DNA from: Artemia franciscana
Taxonomy: Eukaryota > Arthropoda > Branchiopoda > Anostraca > Artemiidae
Assembly: GCF_032884065.1 (NCBI RefSeq)
Contig: NC_088867.1
Coordinates: 55,324,968-55,388,967, forward strand
Reading direction: 5' to 3'
DNA: 64,000 bases
The stretch's first letter is position 1. Every line of letters starts with the position of its first letter. Positions 15,155 through 58,000 of this stretch are shown one piece after another. Under the pieces are notes generated by a model. That model was not told where the DNA came from. It was given only the letters and a program-made list of their open reading frames with translations, and did no database searches. Position numbers and translations under genes: made by a program.

Positions 15155-15225
15155 CGTGAAAATTATCGCCGGCATTCAGGTACAGCCCAGTCGATGATTA
15201 TAGTAGATGTGTTCAAATCGGGACT

Positions 15226-15717: not shown

Positions 15718-15757
15718 AATTGTTATTTCTGCTGACAAAACGCCTACTGGCGAACAT

Positions 15758-16993: not shown

Positions 16994-16999
16994 GGCAGT

Positions 17000-17565
17000 T
17001 TTTGGCTTGCAGTCCGAAATCAGTGATATCGATGAAATCGTACAATATCAGGCTGGAAGATACATAAGCAGTAATGAAGCTGTTTGGTGAATTCTTTCAT
17101 TTCCGATACATGAACGAAGTCCAGCTGTTGTTCACTTAGCGGTACATTTACAGAATGGTCAACGTCTTTATTTTTCGGAATCCAACGTGCAACAAAGAGC
17201 CCTGAATCCACCGGATACAACGTTAACTGCTTTCTTTCCGTTATGCCAAAATGATTCTTTTGCAAAAAAAATACTGTATACTGAAGTGCCTTCGTATTAC
17301 ACGTGGAATACTAAAAGTAAATCATTTGAACGTCGAAAACAGGCTAAGTCAGTCGAAAGCTAACCTACCATCTTCAAAGATACCACGATAGATACCAGGT
17401 TAGGTAGATACCAGGAAGACTCTACACCATTCACCCCAATCAACATGAATGCTTCTTTTTACGCCTGCTTTTGGTGAATATACCCGGTCCGACGTCCTTT
17501 GAGTATTTCAGAAATGTAAACGGTACTATGACACTTACCGTAGTGCATGCCAAGCCCTGAATTTA
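17000..17565 (+). pseudogene. Helitron linker between Rep and helicase, decayed
   Basis: Fragments of the Helitron linker are readable across shifting frames: ISDIDEIVQYQAGRYISS, RSPAVVHLAVHLQNGQR and KKILYTEVPSYYTWN. There are many stops. No separate gene is present. Confidence 0.7.
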
Positions 17566-19345
17566 TTGGAAAATGACCAACACTGGGATAACTGCATCAA
17601 TGACGCGTGCGAAACGTCAACTCCAAGTCAAATTTGTGCATTGTTTGGAATCATACTAACAACTTGCTCTCCTTCAGCTCCTACAGAGTTATGGGAAAAA
17701 TTTAAATCGAAAATGTCCGAAGATACACTCCATCGAAAACGGTTAGAGACGTCAGATATGACTTTTGATTTTACATCAGAAATTTATAACTACACTTTAG
17801 TTATTATTGAAGATTTGTGCTTATGTATGGCAAACAAACCTCTTCAGGATTTGGAAATGCCTTCACCTAATCGTACCGCTGCTGTTTCGACATGTGTAGA
17901 ATTGGATCGAAAACAAAGTTACAACACGAGTGATCTGTTGTCTTACGTACAAAATAATATTTCTAAATTAACGTCTGAGCTAAAAGACATTTATGATACG
18001 ATAATGCATTGTGTCGTTAACAACGCTGGAGAAATCTTCTTTTTGGATGCACCAGGTGGAACTGTTAAAACGTTTGTGATAAAACTGATTCTGGCATCAA
18101 TTCGATCAAAAGATGATATAGCGTTGGCAATTGCGTCGTCCGGAATAGATGCAATGTTGCTGCCTGGTGGAAGAACTGCTCATTCCGCTTTGAAATTGCC
18201 TCTGAATTTGCATTCTACAGAAACTCCCACGTGCAATATTTCAAAATCATCTGAGATGGGTAAAGTATTTCAGCAATGCAAACTTATTATTTGGTACGAG
18301 TGCACAATGGCACACAAAAAAATCGCTCGAGGCTCTGGAGCAATCATTGCGAGATTTGAGAGGAAATTCGAAACCCTTTGGCAGCACATTAATATTACTT
18401 GCGGGAGATTTCAGGCAAACATTACCTATAATACCTAGATCAAACCCTGCAGACGAAATGAATGCTTGCCTGAAAAATTCTAATTTATGGGCACACGTAA
18501 AGACATTAGAATTAACTACAAATATGCGTGTCCGGTTGCAAAACGATGACTCTGGTCAAACAGTTTCAGATCAATTGCTGGCAATTGGAAACGAGAAGCT
18601 CCCAGTACACTCAGTTTCAGTACGTATACAACTACCCGCTGAATTCTGTAATTTAGTGACGTCCAAAAATGAATTGGTTGAAAAAGTATTTCCGAATATT
18701 CTAACCAACTATAAAAATCATAAATGGCTAAGTGAACCAGCGATTCTGGCAGCCAAAAATAAAGACGTCCACGAAATCAACAATATTGTTTTGACCAAGA
18801 TTCGAGACCAGGCAGTCCTTTTCAAGTCAGTCGACACAGTTCTGGAACCAAATGGAGCGGTTAATCATCCATCTGAATTTTTAAATTCCCTGGATCTCCC
18901 AGGGTTTCCACCACACGTGCAAGAACTAAAAATAGGCGTACCAATAATATTGTTACGAAATATCAATCCACCAAAGCTTTGTAATGGCACGCGACTTGCC
19001 GTAAAAAAAAAACAATGGAAAATGTAATAGAGGCAACGGTCTTGACAGGGCCTTTTGAGGGTGAAGCTGTTCTTATTCCTCGCATTCCCATGATTCCAAC
19101 GGATCTGCCTTTTCAATTTAAAAGATTGCAATTCCCAATTCGATTAGCATTTGCAATCACCATCAACAAAGCTCAAGGTCAATCATTAGAAAAATGCGGT
19201 ATAGATCTTAATACAGATTGTTTTCCCATGGACAATTGTACGTTGCATGTTCGAGGGGCGGTAAACCTGACAATCTATTTATATGCACCGACAATGGGAC
19301 AGCGAAGAATGTTGTATATTCGCAAGTTTTACGTAGTTAATTTGT
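17566..19345 (+). pseudogene. Helitron Pif1-type helicase domain
   Basis: Reads WDNCINDACETSTPSQICAL, LFGIILTTCSPS and FFLDAPGGTVKTF; the Walker A should be GGTGKTF and has Gly to Val. It continues with IALAIASSGIDAMLL, GGRTAHSALKLPL, LAGDFRQTLPII, MRVRLQND, FPPHVQELKIGVPIILLRN, LCNGTRL and FAITINKAQGQSLEKCGIDL. Frameshifts lie near 18340, 19010 and 19245; the last converts the VACSRVGKPDN motif to another frame. The Walker-A change and frameshifts show an inactive copy. Confidence 0.9.
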
Positions 19346-19364
19346 ATATATCTATTTTTATCTA

Positions 19365-19731
19365 TCTATATATATATAAAATAATGTTGTTTGTCTGTCT
19401 GTCGACTGACGTCACTGTCCGCATATGACGTCTGAATTATTTCATCATATACCAATTCAAAAACAAATGGATTCAAGCCAAAGTAGCTTGAGTTGAGTTA
19501 CCAAGAGTTGGTAAAGCGTTATGTTCCAGGTTCGGTTAGTAATCACCATCAACAAAGCTCAAGGACAATCATTAGAATAATGAGGTATATATCTGAATAC
19601 GGATTGTTTTTCCCATGGACAATTATATGTTGCATGTTCAAGAGTCGGTAAACCTGACAATCTATTTATATGTACAGACAATGGGACAGTGAAGAATATT
19701 GTATATTCGCAAGTTTTACGTAGCTAAAAAC

Positions 19732-25237: not shown

Positions 25238-25906
25238 TTACGAAACGTCCATTTTGGTGTAGGAGTCGAGTTCTTTGTCCAACTGTTCAGCCGTGAGAGG
25301 CTTTCTTCCTCCACAACCGCCTCCCCAAGAATCTCGACCACGTAAATGAGCTCTGCCTCTTCCACCCATGTGCCTTTGACCTCTGTTGTCACTTCTATAT
25401 CCCCTAAATCGTCCAGATGAGATTATTAGAGATCCTAATCTCATAGTCCGTGCCACAGCAGATATCCCAGACAAGCTGATCTCAATTTTCATCTTTCGAC
25501 CATCAAGGGGGAAACCATTATACTGTTTCATAGCCTGTATAGCATCCATTCTTCGTTCGTAAATAACATTAGCTGTACCCAATGATCTTACACTCCTATC
25601 ATAGTGGACTGCTGCTGACTTTATTGGACCAAATTCTGAAAACAGCTCACGAATATCTTTGTCATTCACTCGAAAATCGAGATTAGATATGAATAGTTTT
25701 GTTCTGCCACCACCGAACTCTTCCCTTACAGATGGCCATCTTAACTCAGCTGACTGAAAGAATTTTCTCCTGCCACTTAGTCCACCTCGTTCACGCCAAC
25801 AACCTCTTCTCATGTGAAGATTTCTGCGCTTTATGACTGAACCACCACTAAATTTTCTTTCATTTAGTTTTCTGGCTTTAATAATCTCATCCAAGGACTG
25901 ATCCAT
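25238..25906 (-). CDS. ALYREF: ALYREF/THO4-type mRNA export adaptor, intronless
   Basis: Aly/REF proteins join the TREX complex, bind spliced mRNA in the nucleus and hand it to the NXF1 export receptor. The 222-residue frame starts MDQSLDEIIKARK, the conserved N-terminal UAP56-binding motif (xDxSLDDIIK). An Arg-rich linker follows, then one RRM at about residues 68-145: RNP2-like KLFISNLDF, FSEFGPIKSAAVHYDRS, LGTANVIYERRMDAIQAMKQ and YNGFPLDGRKMKIEI. Next is an RG-rich segment (RGRAHLRGRD) and the conserved C-terminal motif LTAEQLDKELDSYTKMDV. Domain order and length fit the family. The frame is complete and uninterrupted with no intron, so it is either a single-exon gene or a retrocopy that remained open. 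No poly(A) tract or target duplication was seen beside it. Surrounding DNA is repeat-rich. Confidence 0.88.
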   Translation of the reverse strand: MDQSLDEIIKARKLNERKFSGGSVIKRRNLHMRRGCWRERGGLSGRRKFFQSAELRWPSVREEFGGGRTKLFISNLDFRVNDKDIRELFSEFGPIKSAAVHYDRSVRSLGTANVIYERRMDAIQAMKQYNGFPLDGRKMKIEISLSGISAVARTMRLGSLIISSGRFRGYRSDNRGQRHMGGRGRAHLRGRDSWGGGCGGRKPLTAEQLDKELDSYTKMDVS

Positions 25907-26369
25907 TCTTAATTTTATAACTTCTGAGTTTTAAGTTCACACCAAAATGGCGTTGTACAGAATATATTGGTTGAAACCTTTACCTGGACTAAAAAAAAGT
26001 TATGTTTACCGATAAACAAAATTCTAAATTCGCAACTGGTCTTATCTAAGACAAATTTTTTTTTGCTATTTTAAAGTTGTAACAAGACCTTGGTAAATTG
26101 TCAAAACTACTTGGGACTAAGTTTAAAAGCTGGTTACCCAAAAACAGTAGTATGTCTACGTCATTTAGTATGTCCTTCGTAGAATGTTCTTGTACAATAT
26201 TATATGTTTCAATATCTTCTGTTTTGATATTCAATTGTCTTTGAATGATTGATTATAAGCAAACAAGAGTGTGTTCAGGTATCAAATTTCAAATCGAAGC
26301 TTACAAGTGGACATATTTTTAAGCTGAACGAGAAGTGTAAAAAAAGATTAATTCGTAAATTATTATCCT
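25907..26369. promoter_or_regulatory. 5' flank of ALYREF-like gene
   Basis: AT-rich. A ttataaaatt stretch (minus strand, about 25911-25921) lies directly ahead of the start codon but is too close to serve as a TATA box. No promoter motif is convincing; this is the region where the transcription start should lie if the gene is expressed. Confidence 0.3.
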
Positions 26370-27839: not shown

Positions 27840-28700
27840 GATAGATAGATAGATACAATACAAATTAACTGCGTAAAACTTGCGAATAAACAACATTCTT
27901 CGCTGTCCAATTGTCGCTGCATATAAATACATTGTCAGGTTTACCGACCCTCGAACATGCAACGTACAATTGTCCATGGGAAAAACAATCAGGATTAAGA
28001 TCTATACCACATTTTTCTAATGATTGACCTTGAGCTTTGTTAATGGTGATTGCAAATACTAATCGAATTGGGAATTGCAATCTTTTAAATTGAAAAAGCA
28101 GATCCGTTGGAATCATGGGAATGCGAGGAATAAGAACAGCCTCACCCTCATAAGGCCCTGTCAAGATTGTGGCCTCTATTAGGTTTTCCGTTGTTTTTTT
28201 TACGGCAAGTCGCGTGCCATTGCAAAGCTTTGGTGGGTTGATATTTCTTAAAAGTATTATTGGTACGCCTATTTTTAGTTGTAGCACGTGTGGTGGAAAC
28301 CCTGAAGGATCTATGGAATTTAAAAATTCAGATGGATAATTAACCGCTTCATTTGGTTCCAAAACTGTGTCGACTGACTTGTAAAGGACTGCCTGGTCTC
28401 GAATCTTGTTCAAAACAATATTGTTGATTTCGTGGACGTCTATATTTTTGGGTGCGAGAATCGCTCTTTCACTTAGCCATTTATTATTTTTATAATTTTT
28501 TAGAATATTCGGAAATACTTTTTCAATCAATTCATTTTTGGACGTCACTAAATTACAGAAATCAGCAGGTAGTTGTATACGTCCTGAAATTGAGTCTACT
28601 GTTTGACCAGAGTCATCGTTTTGCAATCGGACACGCATATTTGTAGTTATTTTAATATTTTTACGTGTGCCTATAAATTAGAATTTTTTAGGCAAGCATT
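27840..28700 (-). pseudogene. Helitron helicase C-terminal part, repeat unit 2
   Basis: A long open frame (27865-28638) reads MRVRLQNDDSGQTVDS, FCNLVTSKNELIEKVF, FPPHVLQLKIGVPIILLRN, FAITINKAQGQSLEKCGIDL and VACSRVGKPDNVFI. This is the last third of the Pif1-type helicase, here with the VACSRVGKPDN motif in the correct frame, unlike the plus-strand copy at 19015-19428. It lacks the Walker A region. It is a tandem partner of 28850-29340, offset by about 1,017 bp. Confidence 0.88.
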
Positions 28701-28819
28701 CATTTCGTCTGCAGGAGTTAAACTACGTAAAAATTGCGAATATACAACATTCTTGGCTTTCCCATTGTCTCTGCATATACAAAGCCGTATGTACTAATAA
28801 TGACATCATATGCAAACGC

Positions 28820-29340
28820 TCTTTTTACAAACAAACAAACATGCATACATACAACTCGTTTTTATATAGATAGATAGATAGATAAAATACAAATTAACTG
28901 CGTAAAACTTGCGAATATACAACATTCTTCGCTGTCCAATTGTCGCTGCATATAAATAGATTGTCAGGTTTACCGACCCTCGAACATGCAACGTACAATT
29001 GTCAATGGGAAAAACAATCAGTATTAAGATCTATACCACATTTTTCTAATGATTGACCTTGAGCTTTGTTAATGGTGATTGCAAATGCTAATCGAATTGA
29101 GAATTGCAATCTTTTAAATTGAAAAGGCAGATCCGTTGGAATCTTGGGAATGCGAGGAATAAGAACAGCCTCACCCTCAAAAGGCCCTGTCAAGATTGTG
29201 GCCTCTATCAGGTTTTCCATTGTTTTTTTTTACGGCAAGTCGAGTGCCATAGCAAAGCTTTGGTGGGTTTATATTTCTTAAAAGTATTATTGGTAGGCCT
29301 ATTTTTAGTTGTAGCACGTGTGGTGGAAACCCTGAGAATA
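28820..29340 (-). pseudogene. Helitron helicase C-terminal part, repeat unit 1
   Basis: Same region as 27840-28340 (LLRNINPPKLC, RLAVKKN, IPKIPTDLPFQFKRLQF, FAITINKAQGQSLEKCGIDL), with a frameshift near 29220. Together with 27718-28700 it forms a direct duplication with a period of about 1,017 bp. The unit boundary near 28712 joins NPADEMNACLK coding (gcaagcattcatttcgtctg) directly to RKFYVV coding. Confidence 0.8.
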
Positions 29341-29760
29341 ATATCTCGAGGTAAAAACTGATCACCGACCATAACGATGGCCACTTCGTCGATAGTTGGA
29401 GCATTGTATCTACGCACATGTTGGCCAGGAGGCGTTTTGTCAGCGGAAATAACAATTTTATGCGTATAAGTAGGCGTCAAATCGATGGCTGTTTTGAACA
29501 GACGCACTAAATTATTATTTTCGTGGAAAAGATGTTGTAATTGGGAAACGATTGTCCTTTCAATGTTGGGAGAAATTTCGCAACGTGCATTCAATTCAGA
29601 ATTTCTATCACTGATGAAGTACAATTGTAAAAATTTATGATTTTCGCCTGAGAATGGTAGAAGAGACCCTGCTCTATGATAAATTTGCCCTTTTACTTTG
29701 AAAGTAGACATAAATTGATCTGGATTTTCAATTTGGGCTCCAAACGACGTCATTTGGAAA
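29325..29760 (-). pseudogene. Helitron N-terminal domain fused by deletion to helicase end
   Basis: Reads MTSFGAQIENPDQFMSTFKV, QIYHRAGSLLPFSGE, LQLYFISDRN, LFHENNNLVRLFKTAIDL, RRYNAPTIDEVAIVMVGDQF and LPRDIIL. At about 29340 it jumps straight into GFPPHVLQLKIG of the helicase C-terminus. The HUH Rep and helicase core (about 3 kb in the plus-strand copy) are deleted. This is a typical internal-deletion derivative and cannot transpose on its own. Confidence 0.88.
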
Positions 29761-29849
29761 CATGAGTTGTATTTTCTGATTCATTTATATTCCTTATGTC
29801 CCGGTGTCCCGGTCGTCATTTATATCCCCCTGTTTTATATCCCGCTTAT

Positions 29850-32878: not shown

Positions 32879-34620
32879 TCAAACAGTTCGTGGTAACGAA
32901 CTGTAGTAAGGAGCGACCCGGCTCAATAGTAACCAAAACTCTGAAAAATTGAATTTCGATATCAATAGCTACATCAAAAGAATCGCATTTTAATGCTGAT
33001 TTTAAATATATAATTTTCATCAAGTTTAGTCTTACCCATAAAAAGTTACGAGCCTGAGAAAATTTGCCTTATTTAAGAAAATAGGGGGAAACGCCCCCTA
33101 AAAGTAGTAGGATCTTAACGAAAATGACACCATCAGATTCAGCGTATCAGAGAACACTACTGTAGAAGTTTCAAGCTCCTATCTACAAAAATGTGGAATT
33201 TTGTATTTTTTGCCAGAAGACAATTCACGGGTGCGTGTTTATTTGTTTTTTTGTTGTTTTTTTTTCCAGGGATCATCGTATCGACCAAGTGGTCCTAGAA
33301 TGTCTCAAGAGGGCTCATTCTAACGGAAATGAAAAGTTCTAGTGCCCTTTTTAAGCGACCAAAAAAATTGGAGGGCATCTAGGCCCCCTCTCGCGCTCAT
33401 TTTTTTTCTCAAAGTCAACGGATCAAAATTTTGAGATAGCCATTTTGTTCAACATAGTCGAAAACCATAATAACTATGTCTTTGGGGATGTCTTACTCCC
33501 CCACAATTCCCTGGGGGAGGGGCTGCAAGTTACAAACTTTGGCCAGTGTTTACATATAGTAATGGTTATTGGGAAGTGTACAGACGTTTTCAGGGGGATT
33601 TTATTTTGTTTGGGGGTGGGGCTGAGGAGAGAGGGCTATGTTGGAGAATCTTTCCTTGGAGGAATCTGTCATGGGGGATGAAAAATCAAATGAAAAGGGC
33701 GCAGGATTCTCTAGCATTACTATAAGAAAACAATGAAAAATAAACATGAAAACTTTTTTTCAAATGAAAGGAAGAAGTAGCATTGAAACTTAAAACGAAC
33801 AGAGATTATTACGCATATGAGGGGTTCTAAAAATACTTTAGCATAAAGAGCGATGTATTTAGGAGGAGATAAATAGCTTGCTCTTTATGCTAAAGTGTTT
33901 TTAGTAATTTCAACTATTTATTCTACGGCCTTTCTGATTCAGGGGTCATTCTTAAAGAATTGGGAGAAAAGTTAAGATTTAGTGTAAAGAGCTAGGTATT
34001 AACGAGGGTAAAAACCCCCTCGTATACATAATAAAAATATAAGGTTATGAAAGTTTGTTACGTAAGTTAATTCTTAAGTTACGTATATTTTTTACTGATA
34101 AAAGTGTTAAAAATTAAAAGTTCTAGTAGCCTTTTTAAGTAACCGGAAAATTGGAGGGCAACTAGGCCTCCTTCTCCACCCCTTATTTCTCAAAATCGTC
34201 TGATCAAAACTATGAGAAAGCCATTTAGCCAAAAAAGAATTAATATACAAATTTCATTTTAATAGTTTATGTGCGGAGAGCCAAAACCAAACATGCAGTA
34301 ATTCAAAAACGTTCAGAAATTAAATAAAAAAAAAACTGATTTTTTTAGCTGAAAGTAAGGAGCGACATTAAAACTTAAAACGAACAGAAATTACTCCGTA
34401 TATGAAATGGGTTGTCCCCTCTGCAATCCCTCGCTCTTTACGCTAAAGTTTGACTCTTTGCCACAATTCTACTTTTTAAAACAATTAAAAGCTTTAGCGT
34501 AAAGAGCGAGGGATTGCAGAGGGGACAACCCATTTCATATACAGAGTAATTTCTGTTCGTTTTAAGTTTTAATGTCGCTCCTTACTTTCAGCTAAAAAAA
34601 TCAGTTTTTTTTTTATTTAA
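32879..34620 (+). mobile_element. 1.74-kb hairpin-rich repeat, copy C
   Basis: TCAAACAG at 32879 to ATTTAA at 34620, 1,742 bp, the same length as copy A and near-identical along its length. The terminal foldback is at about 34330-34615. Its outer junctions can be checked against a related unoccupied sequence at 35690-35985 (reverse complement). Confidence 0.88.
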
Positions 34621-34865
34621 TTGCATACGATAGCGTCATAGCGAAAACAATGCTGATGATTCGCTCAAAACATTTCATCTTGAATGTCATACCTCATTTT
34701 GGCTATTTATCTCCTATCCTCCAAGGATAATACATATTTGCTGCGGTAGCTGCAGCCTAGCAAAACACAAACACGGCTCATATTTAATGAAAGAGACAAG
34801 GCAATACAAGTCAATTAAAACTTGTGAAATTTCACAAATTTCAAAAGAGTCTAGAAGAGCGTAAA
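34621..34865. repeat. Right flank of copy C, inverted repeat of 35690-35960
   Basis: ttgcatacgatagcgtcata … ccaaggataatac … agtctagaagagc aligns with the reverse complement of 35690-35955. This and 32840-32878 are the two halves of one locus split by copy C. Confidence 0.75.
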
Positions 34866-40011: not shown

Positions 40012-40110
40012 TCAACCACTTCTACTGTTTGCACCATAATCGTCAAAATAGGAATGTTGCATAGCCTCTTCGGCAGAAATACGATGCGAAGGGTTGCACA
40101 CAAGGAGCCT
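40012..40110 (-). CDS. Cdk5: Cdk5 terminal coding exon
   Basis: 99 bp including TGA. Acceptor …ttattattatag. It encodes [20 protein letters not shown] and [12 protein letters not shown], then stop. The C-terminal tail differs from and is about four residues longer than the usual …YFxDFCPP. The array 40215-41870 in the intron just upstream is homologous to this exon. Confidence 0.95.
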   Translation of the reverse strand, partial: RLLVCNPSHRISAEEAMQHSYFDDYGANSRSG

Positions 40111-43100
40111 CTATAATAATAAATAGGATAACTAAAATGTTGACTAGCAACTATTGAGCTACACGAAGTGAGTTTTCAGATACCTGAAAGGGTTACGGTT
40201 TGATTTACACAATCATCAGCCAAATAAAATTGCTGCATAACCATTAGGGTGAAGTGCTGCACAAAAGCAGCTTTTATAGCATCAATTATATTAACTAAAA
40301 ATTAATTACAAATATTGAGGAGCAGCTACAGAGCTAGACAAATTGAATTATGAGTTACTTGAGCGATTTATGGTTTGACTTGCACAATAATCAGCCAAAT
40401 AGGACTGCTGCATAGCCTTTTCAGGGGTAATACATCGTGAAGTACTGCGCAAAAGTAGATTTTATGACACGGAATATATTAGGTAAAACAATAATTAAAA
40501 ACACTGAGTAGCAACTATTGAGCGGGATGAATTGAGTTATGAGTTACTTGAGAGATTAATGGTTTGATTTGTACAATAATCATCCAAATAGAACTGCTGC
40601 GCAGACTTTTCGGTGATAATACGACGTAAAGTGCAGCAAAAAAGCTGCTTTTATAACGTTTATTAAATAAATTAAAAAAATAATTAAAAATACTGAGTAG
40701 CAAATCTTGAGCCGGATGAATTGAGTTATGAGTTACTTGAGAGATTTAAGGTTTGACTTGTAGAATAATCATCCAAATAGAACTGCTGCATAGACTTTTC
40801 GGTGGTAATACGACGTAAAGTGCAGCAAAAAAGCAGCTTTTATAACGTTTATTAAATAAATTAAAAAATAATTAAAAATACTGAGTAGCAACTCTTGAGC
40901 CGGATGAATTGAGTTATGAGTTACTTGAGAGATTTAAGGTTTGACTTGTAGAATAATCATCCAAATAGAACTGCTGCATAGACTTTTCGGTGGTAATACG
41001 ACGTAAAGTGCAGCAAAAAAGCAGCTTTTATAACGTTTATTAAATAAATTAAAAAATAATTAAAAATACTGAGTAGCAACTCTTGAGCCGGATGAATTGA
41101 GTTATGAGTTACTTGAGAGATTTAAGGTTTGACTTGTAGAATAATCATCCAAATAGAACTGCTGCACAGCCTTTTTGTTGGTGGACGCGAAGTGTTGCAT
41201 AAAAGCAGCTTTTATAGCGTTCATTATATAAATTATAACAATAATTTAAAATATTGAGTAGCAACTATTGAGCTGGACAAATTGATTTATGAGTTACTTG
41301 AGACATTAATGGTTTAATTTGTACAATGATCAGCAAAATAGAACTGCTGCATAGCCTTTCGGTGGTAATACGACGTGAAATGCAGCACAAAAGCAGCTTT
41401 TATAACGTTTATTATATAAACTAAAACAATGATTAAAAATACTAAGTAGCAACTATTGAGCAGGATGAATTGAGTTATGAATTACTTGAGCAATTTATGG
41501 TTTGATATGTACAATAATCAGCCAAATAAAACTGCTGCACAGCCTTTTTGGTGGTAATGCGACATGAGCTGATGCAAAAAAAGCAGCTTTTATAACATAA
41601 ATTATATAACTAAAACAATAATTTGAAATACTAACTAATGAGATAGACAAATGAATTACGAGTTACTTAGTAGATTTATGATTTGGTTTGTACAGTAATC
41701 AGCCAAATAGAACTGCTGCACAGCCTTTTCGGTGGTAATACGACATGAAGTGATACATAAAAGCAGCTTTCATAGCACAAAACATATTCACCAAAAGAAT
41801 TGCTGCATAGCAATTACGGATCATATCACAAAAACTGCTTTTGTAGCACAAAATATTAAGTGAAACAATAAAATATAGAGTAGCAACTATTGAGTCGGAC
41901 AAATAGAGTTATGAGTTATCTGAGAGATTTATGGTTCGATTTGCACAATAATAAATCAAATAATAATTCAAATTGTATGCATTATTATTCTGCTGCTTGT
42001 ATTATTATCAGTGAAAAAAAGATTTTTTGGGTTGTTTTCTACTGTCTTATTGTTTAAATACTATACCCGTTTTTCTATAATTTTTAATTTGTTTTAGATT
42101 TTTTGGGTTGTTTTCTACTGTCTTATTTTTTAAATACTATACCCGTTTTTCTATAATTTTTAATCTGTTTTAGATTTTTTGGGTTGTTTTCTACTGTCTT
42201 ATTTTTAAATACTATCCCCGTTTTTCTATAATTTTTAATTTGTTTTAGATTTTTTGGGTTGTTTTCTACTGTCTTATGTTTTAAATACTATACCCGTTTT
42301 TCTATAATTTTTAATTTGTTTTATTTATAAATAGAAAAGAAGTGTTGTCTAAGAAAACAATAACTTTGTACTTTAATTAGAAATCTGCCAAGGTTTCTTT
42401 CTTTTTTTTTTTTTTTGACTCAACTGAATCTTAACCTTTTTTTATTATTTTCATCAAAAAATGCCTAATTTTGGTATTTTTGTTACAAAATTCAAAATAC
42501 GACAAATTTACCTCCCGCCCTTTAAACTTTGAAAAATGAATTCTGCCCCTACTCTTATATTTTAGTGAATTGACACCAGTGGTTATATCAGGCAAAAAAT
42601 GAAAACATAGGGGTTGCTTTTAATTCATGGCAAGACAAAGGCAATCCAAATAAAATATTATTACACATTGCAGTCAAAGTGGAATATTTTTTTGAGAGGC
42701 TACTGACATTCTTCCAAGTTAGTTTTGAGTTATCAAATAGCATACGAACATAATTTTCTCAATAGTATTGAGCAAGGACACCAGTTGGAGGGGGCGGGTA
42801 GGAAAAATTCCCCCATCCCCACCTGATCTTAAAAATACAATCTTAAAACAAAATTAAAAGAATCTTAAAAATTACAGCATCATACTGCAGTCAAAGTGGA
42901 ATATTTTTTTGAGAGGCTACTGGCATTCTTCCAAGTTAGTTTTGAGTTATCAAATAGCATACGAACATAATTTTCTCTAAAGTATTGAGCAAGGACACCA
43001 GTTGGAGGGGGCGGGTAGGCAACAATTCGTCCATCCCACAGCAACAACGTAGGCTACAAATTCGGCCTGTGAGAATTTCAGTCAAAAGTGCAGTGAGTTT

Positions 43101-46100
43101 GTATCGTCTCATTTTCAGATAAAAAAAAAACAAAAAAAAAGTTTAACTATGTTCATAAGTAGTAATGGAAGATCAATAATAACTGTCAATTCCTCTTGCT
43201 CAATAATCTGAATTTTAAACATCTGATTTTTAATGAGACTATTAAAACAAAGAAAACAAGCACAATCATATGAGAGCCGACCATAAGAACCATAAACTAA
43301 ACTAATCAAGGGGCATAATGAATATATTAAGTCGGGAAAAGCGTCTTAGGAAAAAGCTAGAAATTTCGACATAGTACCTGTAATAGATCTCGGCCTTTGG
43401 GTCCAAGTTTAGGGACAACTTGACTAAGACTTGGAGCCGGAGGGTACATTGAAAATTGTTTGTATTCTGGTAGTTGAGCGTGGCCAGGCCAAGTTTCTTC
43501 CGTAGGAGTGCCTAAAAGCTTAAATATCCGTTTCAATTGATCATCAACATCAGAGCCCGGGAACAGTGGGCGACCCGCATTTGCTAATTCTAAAATTAAA
43601 ATCTATTCAAAATCTGGGATCTGAAACTCATAAATAGGATTAGAATTCAGAATTAGACCCGAAACTATATAACAGGTGGCCTAAATAATACCGGAGGTTG
43701 GAAATAATTATATACTTTAATTTAATTATGTATTCTTGAGATAAAAAACCGAATGAGAATTCGAATTAGGGATGGAAGCAAAATTCTAATTTTGACCCAG
43801 AATACATACAAGCTGGCTCAAATAAGACTGAAGAGTTAAAATAACTGTTTTTATTATAACGGAATAACTAACTCACGTAAGCTTTGCAACCAAGTATGAA
43901 ACATGACATCTCTAAAATGGTTCCCAATGTCTTGCTGACACATATAGACATTTTTCTAGAGCATTTTCCATTACTTAGCCGTTGAAATGACGTTATACAT
44001 CATTAAAAGACGACCATTTTTCGTTGAGTTGACATAAATATTGGCTCTTTCAAGAGCATTTTCAACTAGTAAATCATTCAAATGTTGTTTCCTACCATTA
44101 AATGACGTTTTCCGTCACTAAAAGCATAACCATAATTTCGTTTAGTTGTGATAAATATTGGTTCTTTCTAAAACATTTTCCATTATTTCGTCATTGAAAT
44201 AACGTTTTCCTTCATTAAAATATCACTTTCCTTCATTAAAAGGACGACGACAATTTCGTTTAGTTGCGATCAATATTAGCTCTTAGAGGAGCATATTCTA
44301 TTACTCGGGCATAAAAATGACGTTTTCCTTCATTAAAAGGACGACGACAATTTCGTTTAGTTGCGATCAATATTAGCTCTTAGAGGAGTATATTGTATTA
44401 CTCGGGCATAAAAATGACGTTTTCTGATGTTAAAATGACGCTTTCCCTTCGTTAAACGGACCCAACCGTGATTACTTTTAGCTGAGATAAAAAGTGGGCT
44501 CTTCCAAGAGCGTTTTCAATTGCTCCAGCGTTTACCGTCATTAAAGTGACTATTTCCGTCATTAAAAGGAAGACAGTTTTGTTGAGTTGACATAAATATT
44601 GGCTCTTTCAAGACCCATTTTCCATTACTCCACCACTGAAACGACATTTTCTGGCACAAAAATGAAATTTTCCATCAGTATAAGGACGACAGTAATTTTA
44701 TTGAGTTGAAATAAATAATATTCTCTTCCTAGAGCACTTCCAATTACTATGACAATTACAAATCAAATTTCAACTAAAATTACATTTTCAATCATAAAAC
44801 GGTCGGCATCCTTCATTAAAAGGACAAAAGTAATTTTGTTGAATTGACATAAGTACTGCAGTCTATCAAGAGCATTTTTGACGAACCATAATTTCGTTTA
44901 CTTGGGGTAAGTATTGACTCTTTCGAGACAATTTTTCATTACTCCGGCATAATTATGGCGATTTTTATCATTAGATAAGATAATATTTATTTACAAAAGA
45001 CTATCACAAGCTCTATAGAGCCGAATTCGCTATTATATGTCAGTAAAAGTTAAGAAAAAAAAAATTCAAATAAGTAAATTAAGTCAAGCACTTTAAATTA
45101 AAAAGTCAAAATCATCAAAGATAAAGGGCAAATCATAAAACTTGACAATTAAATTACAAAAACGTTACAATAAATTAAAAAATAAAACGGCAATAGGGGA
45201 AAAGGGGAATTTGGCAAGTACATAATCACGAATTATTATTAAGGTGTTCCAGAATAAAGGGGATAAAACTTTTACGAAACCTCTCTGTAACAGCATGGAT
45301 CGGAGAGTAAGTTGGGATTGCTAAGGAGGTTGACCGGGGGAGTCGGAGTCTAGTGGGATTGTGAAAATCAGGGAGTAAGTCCTCAGTACGGGAATTAGAA
45401 ATGACTGATTTAACGAAAAGCAGGCAAATTTTTTCCCTCCTTTCTTTTAAGGTGGTAATGCGTGCAGCTTTAAGGAGGAAGGAGTAGATTAAAAAGTAGA
45501 TTACTTAAAATGTCATTAAAATGGATGATCTTAATTTCTTTAGTTGCGATAAATATTGTGCTCTTCCAAGAGCATTTTCAATTACTATATCATTAAAGTG
45601 ACGTTTTCCGTCATAGAAATGAAGTTCTCCTTCATCAACAGCTAAACGTAATTACGTTCAGCTGAGATAAATATTGGCTTTTTCAAGAGCATTTCTTCAA
45701 AAGGACGATCATAGTTCCATTGGGCTGATATAAATATTGGCTCTTTCAAGCGCATTTTCAACTAATAAATTATTTAAAAGACGTTTTCCAACATTAAATG
45801 TATGCTATAGCGTGCTGAGCATTAAATATTACTATTATTTTTCTGTCTATTATTTTTTTTCTCTTTGTCCTTTCTTTGATCGATTATCGATATATTTCGT
45901 GATTTATTACTTTAGTTGTTTTATCTGTTCACAAAATGAACTTGTCTCTCTGCCAGATGTTGGTATACTTAGTATGTTACCTATACATGATTGAAAAATA
46001 AATCAATCTGAGCCTGAACCAAAAATTTCTATTTTAAGCTCGCATTTTGCCATCTTGAAACGCATTTTTGTTATACGAAAGAACCTCAATTTTCACCACA

Positions 46101-48977
46101 TGTTCAAGTTCAAAATTGAATGAAAAAAAACTAACAAGGCCCTAACGGTTTCGTTCTTCTATCGTGTGTTTAAAAGAAGGGCATAGCTACACTTAAATGT
46201 AGAAAAAATAATCGTTTTTTCTTGGGAAAATGGGGCTTCTTTATTGGTATTTTTCACCAAATCCCCATAATACTTAGGGCAATTTTTGACCTTTTGGAGT
46301 GGGCAAGTATCCCTAAGACCACCCCCTAGATCAACCCCCGATTTATTACTTCATGTATTTACTAATTGTTATTTTTTGTTACAAATTGTTGTTACTAATT
46401 GTTATTTAATTGTTACTAATTCTTACTTACTAATCACTCTCGCTTGCCTCATTCTAGCGACAGAAAGTTTTGAAACCAGAATTATTTCCACAAAAATGTC
46501 TTTTTTACACAATTTAAAACACAATAAGATATTACAAGAATTTATGAATTCGAAGGAAGTATCAAAAAACGAAATTGTAGAAAACAGGTTTTTTTTACAG
46601 TTTGGGTACACTAGAAATTAGCATCGAAATCATTTTTCGGTTTCTTGTTAATATTATAATTAAAAGAGTTTTCGGTTATTGCTTCCATGAAAAAAAGGAA
46701 GCAAAATCAAGAATTATACATACCAGCGAATATGCAGCCCGCCGACCACATATCAATAGATGTCGTGTAGAGCTTCGCTCCAAAAAGGACATCTGGTGGT
46801 CGATACCAAAGCGTCACAACTTCGGCTGAATAACAACGGACAGGTATACCATAGGCTCTTGCTAATCCAAAATCAGCTAACTTTAAATCTCCATTCTGTA
46901 GATTAAAATAGATTGACAAAAAAAGGTGAAAAGTCCATAGAAAAAACAAATTCGGTTCAGAGTGCAAGGACATCATAAAATTGGCATCGCCTCTTCCCCC
47001 AAGAAAAATGATTAATTTTTTCTTCATGCTAGATTTTTTTTTCTACATTTTAGCTGTATTTTACGTGTGTTAGGTGGTTCAATTAGTGGTTTTTATAGTC
47101 CACTGAGACAACGAAAATAACAAAGTTTTTCCGAGGCTCCTAGCTTTAGACATACCTTACAATGGGGTTGCCAAATGAATTTTTAAGGTGACTATTTCAA
47201 GACAATATTTATCAGGTTGAGATTCTGAAATACTTGGTTGGTCATATTTTTATTTTTTAGTTATTTTCAAGAAAAAAAAAATCGGAGTCAAATTATGAGG
47301 GTTGTTTATCATCAATTATACTCTTTTTCGGATGATTTCTTATATTTTCCATGTAATTCACCCCTTTTTACGTAGTTTATACCCAAATTAAAACGTCAAT
47401 CCCAGTGAAGCGTGTTTTGTTCATAAGCCTGAAGTCAGTTGACTGTTTATTCACATAATGTTAGGGTCTTCAAAAAATTTTCGTTTACTTATTGTTCTAG
47501 ATGAATCAAATAGGAGGACCAACTGGAGGAGGGAGCAAGAGGATGCATCAGGGGGCTAATTATTTTTTGAATTTCGCTATTTAGATTTTGAAAATATCTT
47601 CTCTTCAATATTTTTCATTAGAAAACAAGAGCTAAGACTTCATATGGCACTTCTGACAAGGTCGGAAGAATCATGAGCTCATATGGCATGAGCTCTAGCA
47701 AACTCTAAGAGTCAATAGATTAATTTAAAAGATAAATCAGAGGCTTAATGCCGGTCGGGATTCAAAATAAGAGCTCTGAGACACGAGAAGACACCTTCTA
47801 AACATCAAAATTCATTAAGATCCGATCACCCACTCGTAAGTTAAAAATACCTCATTTTTTCTAATTTTTCCTCTCCCTTCAGCCCCCAGATGGTCGAATT
47901 GGGGAAAAGGACTTCATCAAATCAATTTGTGCAGATCCCTGACACACCTACCAATTTTCATCGTCCTAGCAAGTCCAGAAGCACCGAACTCGCCAAAGCA
48001 CTGGACCCCCTAACTCCCCAGAGAGAGTGGACCCAGTCCGGTTACGTCAATCACGTATCTACGACATTTGCTTATTCTTCCCACCAAGTTTCATCCTGAT
48101 CTCTCCACTCTAAGCATTTTTCAAGTTTTCCGGTTCCCCCTACTCCCCCCACTGCCACGGGATCCAGCCGGGATTTAAAATAAGAGCTCTGAGACACGAT
48201 ATCCTTCTAAATATCAAATTTCATTAAGATCCGATCACCCGTTCGTAAGTTAAAAATACCTAATTCTTTCAGAATTAACACCCCTCCAACTCCCCCAAAG
48301 AGAGTGGATTCAGTCTGGTTATGTCACTTATCTAGGAGTTCCGCTTATTCTTCCCACCAAGTTTCATCCTAATCTCTCCACTCTAAGCGTTTTCCAAGAT
48401 TTCCGGTCCCCCCCCCCAACTCCCCCAAAAACACTGGATCCAGTCGGGATTTAAAATAAAAGATCTGAGTTACGAGGTCCTTCTAAAAATGAAATTTAAT
48501 TAAGATCCGATCACTCCTTCGTAAGTTAAAAATACCTCTTTTTTCTAATTTTTCAGAATTAACCCTCCCACCAACTCCTCCAAACAGAGCGAATCCATTC
48601 CGGTTATGTCAATTACGTATTTAGGACTTGTGCTTATTTTTCCCACCAAGTTTCACCCCGATCCCTCCACTCTAAGCGTTTTCCATGATTTTAGGTTTTC
48701 CCCTCCAACTCCCCAAATATCAATGGATCCGGTTGGAATTTAATATAAGAGCTCTTACTCATCTTACTTAGAGGAAAAGAGCATCATAATAACTGTCACT
48801 AGGGGTGTGACTCGAACCCGAAAAGCTATCCGAGCGTACGTATTTGTCCTTATTTGGGGGGTTTTCCTGGCAACCCCCCTTCACCTCGTACAAAAGATTT
48901 GTCATTGTAGCCAAAGCTTGCAAAATAAAGAAAAGTACAAGAGAAACTACTAATATATACATACATATACATATATA

Positions 48978-49065
<88 letters not shown>

Positions 49066-52000
49066 TACATATACATATATATGTATTGCATTTATTTTCT
49101 GGCATCATGGTTGTAGCAGCTGCTGCAGCTTAGTATAAAGAACGAACGCCATTTCAGAGCAATCGATAATCTAAAACATATTTTGAAAAATGAACTATCA
49201 AGCGACGATTAAACACCATTTGAAGCTGACTCAGCAAAGGATAACCGTTATTTCAGCAAACCTTAACAGCGAAATTTTATTGCAAAAACAAATGCATCGC
49301 ACAGAATAACCTGAAACCCCCCATAAACTGGTGTCAAATGGAAATAAAAGCTGTACCATTAGAATCACCATGGTCAAAAATCCCACACATAGAAGAAACC
49401 CCATTTTATACAACAAGGAAAATCACTTTTTCCCAAGGAAAGCAGTTATGTGTTTCCATTTTTTAAATCTGTTTTTCTACGAGTGATCGTACTGAAGCAG
49501 TGGTCATAGAATGTTGAGGGATGACTCATTTGAAAGGAAATCCCTATATCCAGGTTCTGTTTTAAGTAATAAAATTTAATATTAAAAATAAATACAATTT
49601 TTGACACTGAAGGCAAAATCCATTCCCAACTTACCTTCAATCAAATTCCACAGAGTATATTTAATGCTCACACTTTATGGAACTAGGGTAATTCAGGCTC
49701 AAGGGACTTCCTACAAGGGACAAATTCCTTCCCCTAGGTATGTGCCTGCATCATGGAAGACGACTGAAATCGAACATCTTACTGACCAAAAGCCTCATCA
49801 TTAGTAAGTTGGCTTGTTACAAAAGAATATTTTGGAGTTTCAAATATCTCTGAAAGACAGAGCGATACTGGCAATTTCTAAATCGTCTAAGCAGCGAGAA
49901 TATAAAAGAAACCACTTCGATAAGGGATTCACCAATGAAAATCTCTGCGTTAAAGCCATGTAATAACCAAAAAAAAATTTATGACACCACCTACCAAAAA
50001 AGGGCTACAATTTCAGCAATCATTTTGCATTTCTGAATTCATTTTAAATTTATACCAGTTCCAAAATTAATTGAGTCGAAATAGAAATTTCTCCCCTGGG
50101 GACGTGTCTCCGTCACAGACAACATTTTAAACTCCAATTAAAAAAAAAAATTATCAAGGAGAAGCTAACGAGAAGCTTTAAATCTCTCTGAAAGACAGCA
50201 CGTCAGTTGATTCTGATTGTAAAAGGTAAGGTAAAGGTAAAGGATACGGCATTAGACTTTACAGTCCGTACCGGCGGTGCTGATCTCCGTTTCTTGGCCC
50301 TTCAGCCAGGAAGTGCAATGGGGGGTTGGGGGCCAGCCATCCTGTGCTTTCGCACACCCTTCCTGTTTACCTTCCCCAGATTTCTCCAGGTACCCATTTA
50401 GAGCTGGGTCGACTCTGGCTAAGCTTGCAGAGTCACACCACTGACCCCGTCCCAAACTGAAGAATTGGGTACACTGGAATTCGAACCCGCGTCCTCTCAG
50501 ACAAGGGATCCCGAATCCAGGGCACTAACCCACTCGGCCAGGACGGCTTCTGATTGTAGCTACTGTTCCAACCATAATTTTAAATGATGGGAAGGCAGTG
50601 TGGTCTTCGTCAGTATTTAAGAAGAAAAGCATCATTGATAGTAAGCTACCTTGTTAATAAGAAGATTTTGAGGTTTCAAATCTCTGTGAAGAACATTGTG
50701 ATTATGGCAATATGCCAATCCTCTAAGCAGCTGGTACATAAAAGAAGCCACAACATCTGGATCTATTTCTCCATTTAAGCTGTCGAAGTACTTCTTTAGA
50801 TCTTGGTCACAGTGCTCAAATACCAAAGTCAATTTCTTTTCACTATGTAGCACATCATGCAACCTCACAATATTTTTATGCTTGAGCTCCTTTAAGAGGC
50901 AAATTTCTCTTAGTGCTGACGAGGGTACTCCCTGAAAGGAAAATCAAAGTCAAATTGTTTAGTGTTATTAATACAAATACTAAAAGCTTACAATGCATAT
51001 GATTAATCACTATACTGAATAACATGTTCAATACATCATATCTTATAAAAAGAACAATAGGTAAGTACGGTATAAGCATATTTATAAATTTATCTGTAAC
51101 TTTTCTCAAAAATGTTTTTTTTTTCCTGGAAACTGCCATACTACCATTTTCCGATGTGAAAAAATGATATAGATAGGTCACAACTTCGGAAAAATTCGTT
51201 TAGAGCCTTAATTTTGGAAAAACATTTTTCATATGAATTATCTCACAAATACTTTAGAGTAGTTATAATAAATTTTGTTAAAGATGAGTGCTGTGCTGAA
51301 TATTCTAAAAACTGCAATACAATTTCATTCGATTGTCAATAATATAGAATAACAAGTCGGTATAAATATACGAAAACATTTGCAGAATAAAATAAAATGT
51401 AATTAAAGTTGTTCTTTACAGAGGGAGAAGCTCCGTCCCCTGGTACTTCTATTATGTGAATATTACACCCTATGTTAAAATAGTAGACATTTCGTAAATA
51501 CTACATTCATTTATATTATCAACGCACTACAAAGTATTTCACTAAACTAGAAAAGTCAAAATAATACACAAATACAAGGAAAATTGTATTTATTTATTTA
51601 ACCACCTGAAGGGTAGAAGAAATTTCATTGATTAAAAAGCAACCAAAGAAGCAGATCATACGAATTTCAATATACGACTAAAAATATAGGGGAGGAAGAG
51701 GAATATAAAGGAGGAGGAAGAGGAGGGACGTAATTTCTCTGAGTTTCAACCGTAGGATTTGACATATAAAGGAGGAAGAGGAGGAGGACTGTAATTTTTC
51801 TGACTTTCAACCCTAGGGTTTGACTTATAAAGGAGGAAGAGGAATATAAAGGAGGAAGAGGAGAAGGAATGTAATCTCTCTGACTTTCAACCCTAGGGTT
51901 TGACTTGACCATTGATTAGAACCAGAGGGAGGCGACTTTAAGCTAAAGAAAATGTTAGTTTAGGCTGAAGATTTTGTCCTTGAGTAGGGGGGGGGTCCTT

Positions 52001-55000
52001 TATTCCTTCCAGTACGGGTCTGGGCTTCAAATTTGAAGTCATCTTGAGCATTCGAAAGAAATAATTACCATATGCATGAAAAAGTACACCTTGATTAGGT
52101 AATAAAGGCATTGTTACTCACTAATAGGCATGTTACTCACTAATAATATTAAGTAATTAAATGCTATTTTGTTTATTTTGAAATGATTCATGAAATAAAA
52201 CTATATTTACAAACAGCAGTATTGATTTAGTTTCCATTATTGGAGTCATTAAAACACAAACACAAATCCCTATAAAACCACCCAAGTTCCTGTTTATTAG
52301 CCAAGCGGGCGCTGACTTGCCACCCCCTGGTACAAGCCTGCATCTCAAAAGGCAACGTGTGCCACAGAATTCCGTCGAGTTTGGCACACCTCTCAAAACG
52401 CTTAGCACGGCTCCGCCACGCTGGGCACACGCCACCTGTTGTATATGATTTCTGATAGAGAGCAACTCTTCACTATTAGCATTAATAATCTCTTTCATTT
52501 CTCTTTCATACATCTTTTAAGCAGCTGCGTTGCTGTGTTTTCATGTGACCGTGTTCCTGGTCCTACTTGCTTTTGGTCACAAAAAAAAAAACGAAAAAAA
52601 AATCTTAAAAATGAAATTTGAGGTACTTGAGAATGCGACTTGGAAAGCTTTTTCTCTTTACCATTTCATAAAAACTGAACAAGTTGTATAATAATTTATT
52701 TGTAAATATTATTTATTTCCTTACTTTATAAATATTTTGTGTATTTAATTGTTATTCCAATTTATTTGATTAGTGTGGCATTTAGAGGCAGGAGACCACT
52801 CGACTTGGAAAGCTTTTAAGGGGTTCACTGCTAAAATAATTAAGTTCAAAAAAGTTTAAAATTTACGTTACCAAAATTGATCTCGTAGTTTTGGTTATGA
52901 ATGGATACAATATCAAACAGTTCGTGGTAACGAACTGCAGTAAGGAGCGACCCGGCTCAATAGTAAACGAAACTCTAAAAAGCGGATGCTAAAAGATACA
53001 TCAAAAGAATCGAATTTTCATGCTGATTCTAAATATATAAGTTTCATCAAATTTAATCTTTGTCATCAAAAGTTACGAGCCTGAGAAAATTTGCCTTATT
53101 TAGGAAAATAGGGGAAACACCCCATAAACGTCAAAGAATCTTAACGAAAATCACACCATTGCGTTCAGCGCATCAGAGAACCCATGGCAAAAAATTTCAA
53201 GCTCCTATCTACAAAAATGTGGAATTTCATATTTTTTGCCAGAAGAGAGATCACGGGTGCGTGTTTATTTGTTTGTTTTTGTTTTTGTTTTTTTTCCCAG
53301 GGGTCATCGTATCGACCAAGTGGTCCTAGAATCTCGCAAGAGGGCTCATTCTAACGGAAATGAAAAGTTCTAGTGCCCTTTTTAAGTGACCAAAAAAACT
53401 GGAGGGCACCTAGGCCACCTCCCACGCTCATGTTTTTCCCAAAGTCAACAGATCCAAATTTTGAGATAGCCATTTTGTTCCGCATAGTCGAAAACCAATA
53501 ACTTTGTCTTTGGAGTGACTCACTCACCCACAGTCCCTGGGGGAGGGGCTGCAAGTTACAAACTTTGTCCAGTGTTTACACACAGCAATGGTTATTGGGA
53601 AGTGTACAGAAGTTTTCAGTGGAATTTTCTTGGTTTGAGTGCTGTTGAGGGGAGGGGGCTATGTGGGAGGATCTTCTCTTGGAGGAATATGTCATGGGGG
53701 AAGAGAAATTCAATGAAAAGGGCGCGGGATTTTCTAGCATTACTATAAAAAAAACAATGAAAAAATAAAAACGAAAAAGTTTTTCAACTGAAAGTAAGGA
53801 GTAGCATTAAAACTTAAAACGAACAGAGATTATTACGCATATGAGGGGTTCTAAAAATACTTTAGCATAAAGAGCGAGGTATTTAGGAGGAGATAAATAC
53901 CTTGCTCTTTATGCTAAAGTATTTTTAGTAATTTCAACTATTTATTCCACGGCCTTTCTGATTCAGGAGTCATTCGTAAAGAATTGGGACAAAACTTAAG
54001 ATTTAGTGTAAAAGGCGAGGCATTAACGAGGGGACAAACCCCCTCATATACATAATAAAAAATATAAAAGTTTAAAAGAGTATAAAAGTTTGTTACGTAA
54101 GTTAATTCTTAAGTTACGTATATTTTTTACTAATACAAACGTTCGTTAAAAATTAAAATTTCTAGTTGCCTTTTTAAGTAACCGAAAAATTGGAGGACAA
54201 CTAGGCCTGCTTCCCCGCCCCTTATTTCTCAAAATTGTCTGATCAAACTAAGAGCAAGCCGTTTAGCCAAAAAAAAATTAATAAGCAAATTTTATTTTAA
54301 TAATAAATGTGCGGAGAGCCAAAATCAAAAATGCATTAATTCAAAAACGTTCAGAAATTAAATAAAAAAACTAGTTTTTTAAACTGAAAGTAAGGAGCGA
54401 TATCAAAACTTAAAACGAACAGAAATTACTCCGTATATAAAATGGGTTGTCCCCTCCGCAATACCTTGCTCTTTACGCTAAAGTTTGATTCTTTGCCACA
54501 ATTCTACCTTTTAAAACAATTAAAAACTTTAGCATAAAGAGCGAGGGATTGCGGAGGGGACAACCCATTTCATATACGGAGTAATTTCTGTTCGTTTCAA
54601 GTTTTGATATCACTCCTTACTTTCAGTTTAAAAATATTTTTTTTTATTTAATCAAACAGTTCGTGGTAACGAACTGTAGTAAGGAGCGACCCGGCTCAAT
54701 AGTAAACGAAACTCTAAAAAACGGAATTTTGATGCTAAAAGATACATCAAAAGAATCGAATTTTCATGCTGATTCTAAATATATAAGTTTCATCAAATTT
54801 AATCTTTGTCATCAAAAGTTACGAGCCTGAGAAAATTTGCCTTATTTTGGAAAATAGGAGGAAACACCCCCTAAAAGTCAAAGAATTTTAACGAAAATCA
54901 CACCATCGCATTCAGCGTATCAGAGAACCCTGTAGCAAAAATTTCAAGCTCCTATCTATAAAAATATGGAATTTCGTATTTTTTGCCAGAAGACAGATCA

Positions 55001-58000
55001 CGGTTGCGTGTTGATTTGTTTGTTTGCTTTTTTTTTCCAGAGGTCATCGTATCGACCAAGTGGTCCTAAAATATCGCAAGAGGACTCAAGCTAACGGAAA
55101 TAAAAAATTCTGGTGCCCTTTTTAAGTAACCAAAAAAATTGGAGGGCACCTAGGCCCCCTCCTATGCTCATTTTTTTCCCAAAGTCAACGGATCAAAATT
55201 TTGAGATAGCCATTTTCTTCCACATAGTCGAAAACCATAATAACTATGTCTTTGGAATGATTCACTCCCCCAAAGTCCCTGGGGGAGGGGCTGCAAGTTA
55301 CAAACTTTGTCCAGTGTTTACATACAGTAATGGTTATTGGGAAGTGTACAGACGTTTTCAGGGAGATTTTTTTGGTATGGGGTGGGGTTGAGGAGAGAGG
55401 GCTATGTGGGAGGATCTTACCTTGGAGGAATATGTCATGGGGGAAGAGAAATTCAATGAAAAGGGCGCGGGATTTTCTAGCATTAATATAAAAAAAAAAA
55501 CAATGAAAAAATAAACCAGAAAAACTTTTTTCAACTGAAAGTAAGGAGTAGAATTAAAACTTAAAATGAACAGAGATTATTACGCATATGAGGGGTTCTA
55601 AAAATACTTTAGCATAAAGAGCGAGGTATGTAGGAGGAGATAAATACCTTGCTCTTTAAGCTAAAGTATTTTTAGTAATTTCAAATATTTATTCTACGGC
55701 CTTTCTGATTCAGGTGTCATTCTTAAAGAATTGGGACAAAACTTAAGATTTAGTGTCAAGAGCGAGGCATTAACGAGGGGACAAACCCCCTCATATACAT
55801 AATCAAAAATATAAGAATATAAGAGTTTATTACGTAAGTTATTTCTTAAGTTACGTATAGTTTTTACTAATAAAAACGTTCGTTAAAAATTAAAAGGTCT
55901 TGTTGTCTTTTTGAGTAATCAAAAATTGGAGGGCAACTAGGCCTCCTTCCCCATCCCTTATTTCTCAAAATCGACTGATCAAAACTAAGAGAAAGCCATT
56001 TAGCCAAAAAAGAATTAATATGAAAATTTCATTTTAATAATTTATGCGCGGAGAGACGAAATCAAAAATGCATTAATTCAAAAACGTTCAGAAATTAAAT
56101 AAAAAAACTAGTTTTTTAAACTGAAAGTAAGGAGCGATATTAAAACTTAAAACGAACAGAAATTACTCCGTATAAGAAACGGGTTGTCCCCTCCGCAATC
56201 CCTCGCTCTTTACGCTAAAGTTTAACTCTTTGCCACAATTCTGCTTTTTAAAACAAATAAAAGCTTTAGCGTAAAGAGCGAGGGATTGCGGAGGGGACAA
56301 CCCGTTTCATATACGGAGTCTTGTTGCCTTTTTAAGTAGCCGAAAATTGGAGGGCAACTAGGCCTCCTTCCCCATCCTTTATTTCTCAAAATCGCCTGAT
56401 CAAAACTAAGAGAAAGCCATTTAGCCAAAAAAGAATTAATATTAAAATTTCATTTGAATAATTTATGCGCAGAGAGCCAAAATCAAAAATGCATTAATTC
56501 AAAAACGTTCAGAAATTAAATAAAAAAAAATAGTTTTTTAAACTGAAAGAAAGGAGCGACATTAATACTTAAAACGAACAGAAATTACTCCGTATAAGAA
56601 ACGGGTTGTCCCCTCCGCAATCCCTCGCTCTTTACGCTAAAGTTTAACTCTTTGCCACAATTCTGCTTTTTAAAACAAATAAAAGCTTTAGCGTAAAGAG
56701 CGAGGGATTGCGGAGGGGACAACCCGTTTCATATACGGAGTCTTGTTGCCTTTTTAAGTAGCCGAAAATTGGAGGGCAACTAGGCCTCCTTCCCCATCCT
56801 TTATTTCTCAAAATCGCCTGATCAAAACTAAGAGAAAGCCATTTAGCCAAAAAAGAATTAATATTAAAATTTCATTTGAATAATTTATGCGCAGAGAGCC
56901 AAAATCAAAAATGCATTAATTCAAAAACGTTCAGAAATTAAATAAAAAAAAATAGTTTTTTAAACTGAAAGAAAGGAGCGACATTAATACTTAAAACGAA
57001 CAGAAATTACTCCGTATATGAAACGGGTTGTCCCCTCCGCAATCCCTCGCTCTTTACGCTAAAGTTTGACTCTTTGCCACAATTCTGCTTTTTAAAACAA
57101 TTAAAAGCTTTAGCGTAAAGAGCGAGGGATTGCGGAGGGGACAACCCGTTTCATATACGGAGTAATTTCTGTTCGTTTTAAGTTTTAATGTCGCTCCTTA
57201 CTTTCAGTTTAAAAGACTAGTTTTTTATTTAATTCAGTTCAAAGACCACTATGTAGTGATAAGCCTACCATTTTTTCAACTACTGAAATATCTTGGTCAA
57301 TACACTAATTTAGAACTTATTGCCTGAGCTCATTGAATAATGCTTCTTTTTAGCTATGTTAGGGCATTTTCAGAAGGGTCAGTTGCCCTCCAATAATTCG
57401 GAGAAAAAATTATTATGTAGCCCATGCCCCTTGACTATCTGACTATGGAACCCTCTTGTCCCTCCAATAAAAAAGCTGGATCTAAGCCCTGGATATTTTT
57501 ACACTGTATTTTGGGCAATGGTCCTTTGTAAATGCCAAAAAGAGAATGGATCAACTTCAATAGTTACCAAACGCTTTCAAAGTGAAAATAATTAAACTTT
57601 GCTGGTATCTATACCCAAATCCATATTATTCACGACAGTCATCGCAAACAAGCACATCTACCAAACCTGTTTCGCAATTTTTTGTAAGCAAAATCGTAAT
57701 AAAATCTAGAAACTCCATATAGCCCTACTTGAAGTAAAAAAGTTGTCCTAAAGTGCCAAAAATAGCTGAAAGGGAATCCCATTGCTTGAATTAGTTAAGT
57801 GGATATTACACAACCATGTACATTTCTAAAATTAGGAAAAATTAAACTTTTAATTGAAAACACATTCGTATGCAGTTTTTGGTGGCAGTGGGTGCCAAAA
57901 AAATGTGGGAGAAAAATCAGCAGAAAATCAGCTAAAAATTATCAAAGTGAAGAAAGAAAGTTAAGCTTTCCTTTGAGGGTGTAGTTGTATTTGGGAAACA

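Follow-up and report, generated by a model that had tools for sequence, protein, structure and literature searches.

A satellite-like array in the last intron of Cdk5 of Artemia franciscana, very probably derived from the gene's own terminal exon and now decayed

Introduction

The last intron of the Cdk5 gene of Artemia franciscana carries tandem units that resemble the terminal coding exon of the same gene, some of them open in the exon's frame. The locus poses a plain question: are these units a dead satellite made of exon DNA, or a bank of alternative terminal exons giving CDK5 different C-termini? Both answers were offered by a sequence-only reading of the 64,000-nucleotide stretch analysed here (the window). 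The first proves the better half of that pair and is supported: the array is very probably a local satellite, which arose when the terminal Cdk5 exon and neighbouring intron were duplicated in tandem, and which has since decayed. Mutually exclusive exon clusters, such as those of Dscam1, keep splice sites, frames and protein constraint. Tandem exon duplications are reported in PMC9013439, where human, fly and worm genes contain homologues of their own exons, including unannotated ones in introns.

The host gene

Located on the minus strand. Exons were matched by human CDK5 (tblastn) and their boundaries read off the DNA (Table 1); the first coding exon was not found in the window by comparison with human CDK5. 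Protein joined from the exons found matches solved CDK5 chains at about 3e-162, and the next kinase behind these chains stands at 2e-109 (best 60 of 101 matches). As judged from its sequence, the gene is Cdk5. The junction from the donor at 43377 to the terminal exon is of phase 0. Taken alone, the terminal exon gives a weak Pfam match to the end of Pkinase (E 0.11). It is the only copy with the original AG acceptor. The G+C content of the window is 34.9%; an Artemia assembly is described with a G+C content of 34.7–34.9% and 8.81% of Helitrons (PMC11492255).

Table 1. Positions of the Cdk5 exons, the units of the array and the copy of exon 3 within the window
Feature	Position	Strand	Evidence	Remarks
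Cdk5 exon	59146-59058	minus	human CDK5 match	
Cdk5 exon 3	50931-50650	minus	human CDK5 match	source of decayed copy at 49788-49915
Decayed partial copy of exon 3, in the following intron	49788..49915	minus	blastn 75.8%, E 8.8e-20	exon end and donor region
Cdk5 exon	46895-46724	minus	human CDK5 match	
Penultimate Cdk5 exon (E5)	43589-43378	minus	human CDK5 match	donor GT at 43377-43376
5'-most fragment	41870..41961	minus	nhmmer E 7e-11	end of exon part and following intron part; array start
U01	41770..41870 (about)	minus	alignment	short degenerate exon-part copy; stop in exon's frame
U02	41590..41769	minus	alignment	open in exon's frame
U03	41400..41589	minus	alignment	1-nt insertion in T run (frameshift)
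U04	41212..41399	minus	alignment	1-nt deletion (frameshift)
U05	41028..41211	minus	alignment	4-nt gap (frameshift); intron part same as U06 (0/113)
U06	40840..41027	minus	alignment	open in exon's frame
U07	40651..40839	minus	alignment	open; exon part identical to U06
U08	40461..40650	minus	alignment	open in exon's frame
U09	40275..40460	minus	alignment	open in exon's frame; no AG at +3
U10	40111..40274	minus	alignment	exon-part copy with 13-nt deletion, and working intron just upstream of real exon
Cdk5 terminal coding exon	40110-40012	minus	tblastn with human CDK5, E 7e-07	
Repeated part of terminal exon	40028..40110	minus	blastn	

Description of the array

Tandem array in the last Cdk5 intron, extending from 40111 to about 41961, with a period of about 188 bp and units in gene orientation. 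TRF delimits it at 40249-41774 (period 188, 8.2 copies). Contains nine near-complete units (U02–U10), one short degenerate exon-part copy (U01) and one 5' fragment. With a unit profile, nhmmer (E up to 10) recovers the nine near-complete copies, the fragment at 41870-41961 and the exon itself, and no unit copy elsewhere in the 64-kb window.

In each near-complete unit about 83 nt (less indels) come from the exon, and about 100 nt of intron origin follow. Units are homologous to exon part 40028-40110 and to about 95 bp of adjoining intron, on one strand and in one register. The exon region with its flank matches the array at up to E 8e-26, and the 99-nt exon alone matches the best unit at E 4e-10 (blastn within the window). 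Aligned to the unit consensus, the exon attains a score of 67 and the reverse strand 14; among 2000 dinucleotide shuffles the highest score is 27, and none reaches that of the exon. About ten units of about 188 bp, homologous to the terminal exon and its intron in the same strand and register, had been proposed at the outset, and the self-comparison suggested as a check places this homology far above chance. The units had been aligned with the whole exon (40012-40110); this stands for 40028-40110, where the homology begins (blastn), and not for the last 16 or so coding nucleotides of the exon, to the end of the stop codon, which are absent from the units. The homology is collinear over exon and flanking intron, on the same strand, as in a decayed tandem exon duplication.

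Reading frames and coding constraint

Frame-breaking indels occur in four of the nine near-complete units; five are open and share one stop. The sequence-only reading was right in that the exon's frame is intact in the four units at 40402, 40780, 40968 and 41710 and shifted in the unit at 41156 (U05); the unit at about 40590 (U08) is open as well, and additional frame breaks lie in U03, U04, U10 and U01 (Table 1). Simulated 25-codon copies remain without substitution stops in 51–78% of cases at 5–15% divergence from the unit consensus, so that selection is not needed to account for open frames in five of nine units.

With 25 codons available, the coding tests have low power. Changes over codon positions 1, 2 and 3 number 17, 16 and 19 on the tree of the nine units, i.e. 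are flat. On the same tree the exon part has 52 changes in 75 columns (0.69) against 91 in 114 (0.80) for the intron part, not a significant slowing (P 0.24, one-sided permutation). The dN/dS comparison that had been proposed, among units and against the exon, is also subject to the 25-codon length. Pooled dN/dS among eight units (U07 omitted, its exon part being equal to that of U06) is 0.63 in the exon's frame (bootstrap 0.33–1.20) and much the same, 0.60 and 0.67, in the two other frames; that of four open units (U02, U06, U08 and U09) is 0.71 (bootstrap 0.32–1.64). Units differ from the exon at 19–26 of 62–75 sites, with dN/dS of 0.49 in frame against 1.07 and 1.36 off frame (bootstrap 0.18–1.41, which includes 1); the lower in-frame value would fit selection on the working exon's own branch. 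Pairwise difference among units is 5–26% in the exon part, identical U06/U07 apart. The exon part is the more similar of the two in some pairs (U06–U08, 4/75 against 18/113 in the intron part); the reverse is found in U05–U06 (10/71 against 0/113).

Residues shared by the exon and human CDK5 (15–17 readable) are changed at 6–9 sites in each of seven units (U07 omitted as a copy of U06, U10 because of its deletion), and the P of CNP is lost in 7/7 of these units. Summed over the seven, 55 of 116 shared residues are changed against 31 of 49 others, an apparent slight lean toward keeping of the shared residues, which would speak against the units being dead. Constraint on the units was sought in codon positions, three-frame dN/dS, exon/intron rate, stop simulation and shared residues, and no clear signal emerged from the 25 codons. 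The pattern of change among units agrees with neutrality, within the low power of 25 codons.

Splice signals

As alternative terminal exons, the open units would be spliced to the donor at 43377 through an AG that lies three bases past the old acceptor, would give CDK5 new last 36 residues ending in SNS and a stop, and would draw on poly(A) signals of the array. The exon's own AG is kept in 0/9 near-complete units: the AA read at this place beforehand is correct for eight, and U02 has GA instead. The in-frame AG at +3, likewise read beforehand, is present in 8/9 units and lost in U09. It occurs together with an open 36-codon frame in 4/9 units (U02, U06, U07 and U08, with U06 and U07 encoding an identical tail), which favours splicing into these four, yet its context is AAAAG in seven units and GAAAG in one, and the 16 bases upstream hold 7–10 pyrimidines in units against 8–13 in five real acceptors of Cdk5, ranges that overlap (real E5, 8). 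AATAAA stands on the gene strand at 40664, 40853, 41041 and 41413, in keeping with a use as poly(A) signal, but would be expected at 32% G+C. The SNS-stop tail, first described as shared and new, aligns to intron at about 40160-40205, adjoining the real exon; it is intron DNA and not an evolved C-terminus, and results from the position of the duplication junction. The NP of the CDK5 end is gone from the open units, and no coding signal was detected in units over the 25 codons. A role of the open units as alternative terminal exons is, on these grounds, highly improbable.

Splicing of U02, U06/U07 and U08 at a low level or in one tissue, with a 36-residue C-terminus that is partly former intron, would be scarcely more than a slim chance; if true, the satellite would feed CDK5 protein variation. 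Use of the open units as alternative endings appears unlikely, and rare splicing into units may be possible, with no reason to expect it. The units are presumably absent from mRNA. Nothing supports a bank of alternative terminal exons: frames that are still open are to be expected of copies drifting from an open ancestor. For the dead exon satellite speak the flat codon positions, dN/dS like that of the off-frames, frames broken in 4/9, acceptors lost in 9/9 and 6–9 changed shared residues.

Origin

The decayed satellite would have started from a segment of about 180–190 bp, reaching from intron to a breakpoint that falls some 16 nt short of the exon's stop codon, that was duplicated head to tail into the intron. 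Inner copies would have been freed from selection, with decay of their acceptor, and the downstream-most copy would have remained the working exon. Unequal exchange or slippage would have yielded multiplied, partly homogenised copies.

Intron parts (113 nt) of U05, U06 and U07 differ at 0–1 positions, which argues for recent exchange. U05 and U06 together form a mosaic as expected of unequal exchange or conversion, since their intron parts are the same and their exon parts differ; unequal exchange is probably the motor. Head-to-tail units with homogenised neighbours (TRF period 188; U05–U07 block) are those of a satellite or minisatellite.

Microhomology at the first duplication junction was considered. 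The 5'-most fragment reads TTATTGTGCAAA, which is similar to the exon end, ATTATGGTGCAAA; no claim is made, because this fragment may itself be the remnant of a unit, as 28 nt spanning the exon end match the unit consensus (a match without shuffle control).

It is barely conceivable that the exon arose from an older satellite, or that the array is an artefact of assembly. The exon encodes a CDK5 end common to human and the units have drifted from the exon; no point in support of a satellite-first origin was found. Collapsed or expanded arrays are a usual risk of assembly, here in U05–U07, but the array is not one mis-assembled copy, because exon parts other than those of U06/U07 differ by 5–26% pairwise.

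Comparison with known systems

The array shares with tandem exon duplications, as these appear in PMC9013439, head-to-tail exon-like copies in an intron of the same gene. It differs from what is described there in having about ten copies, satellite-like homogenisation and no sign of maintained coding, and in lacking the original acceptor in 9/9 near-complete units. Exon's AG lost in 9/9 and frame broken in 4/9 are features of a decayed tandem exon duplication.

With mutually exclusive exon clusters of the Dscam1 type it has in common a tandem array of exon homologues; the Cdk5 units differ in lost acceptors and in frames broken in 4/9. Loss of the exon's AG from every near-complete unit and an intact frame in just 5/9 do not agree with alternative or mutually exclusive exons.

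Similar to intronic satellite and minisatellite arrays in the period of about 188 bp, near-identical neighbours, A+T-rich composition, one orientation and one locus within the window. Differs from them in that part of a coding exon of the host gene can be recognised in the unit. Literature on exon-derived satellites, tandem exon duplication, Artemia repeats and CDK5 isoforms gave no match to the locus or to such a satellite among the papers listed. A 1986 paper on Artemia satellite DNA is cited in PMC8406910.

As a product of local duplication the array is ordinary, though instructive. The passage of coding DNA into satellite DNA, next to a parent that still works, can be read here cleanly, and the gene carries another decayed exon copy. 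The case cautions that in-frame repeats near exons are not to be taken for alternative exons. Its importance would be much greater if any unit occurred in mRNA.

Further repeats of the window

The second decayed copy derives from exon 3 (128 bp; source 50625-50751; about 76% identical). Its alignment score is 129, the highest of 1000 shuffles being 45, and tblastn with human CDK5 gives E 0.003. Donor GT lost; HRD reads QRY; frame uninterrupted across the 32 residues of the tblastn match. A third exon-3-like piece at about 50151-50197 is unproven, as 12 of 1000 shuffles do equally well.

TRF arrays of period 60 or more occupy 7067 bases (11%) of the window, the exon-derived array included. Further arrays in Cdk5 introns lie at 42020-42323, 42669-43037, 43953-45800 and 47751-48755. 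These bear on the idea that the exon-derived array acts in a non-coding manner at the DNA or RNA level, e.g. by slowing splicing or transcription of the last intron. Location in the last intron and near-identical units, a sign of recent turnover, are compatible with such a role, but nothing points to it directly and other local arrays occur across the window, other Cdk5 introns included; it is considered improbable.

The array at 42020-42323 comprises four near-identical 76-bp tandem units and, in gene direction, immediately precedes the exon-derived array. The last Cdk5 intron also holds a 152-bp direct duplication (42669-42819 and 42886-43037, 95% identical). Reading frames at 14699-19428 and 27865-29780 are taken to be Helitron-like; the set at 27865-29780 is a related, interrupted, minus-strand copy of the other. 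A minus-strand reading frame at 25238-25930 presumably resembles the ALYREF/THO complex subunit 4 protein. A dispersed element of about 1.75 kb occurs at 2277-4027, 12255-14009, 32879-34621 and 52912-57234, with copies 79–95% identical, and a 422-bp tandem array (55897-57163) is located at the last of these copies.
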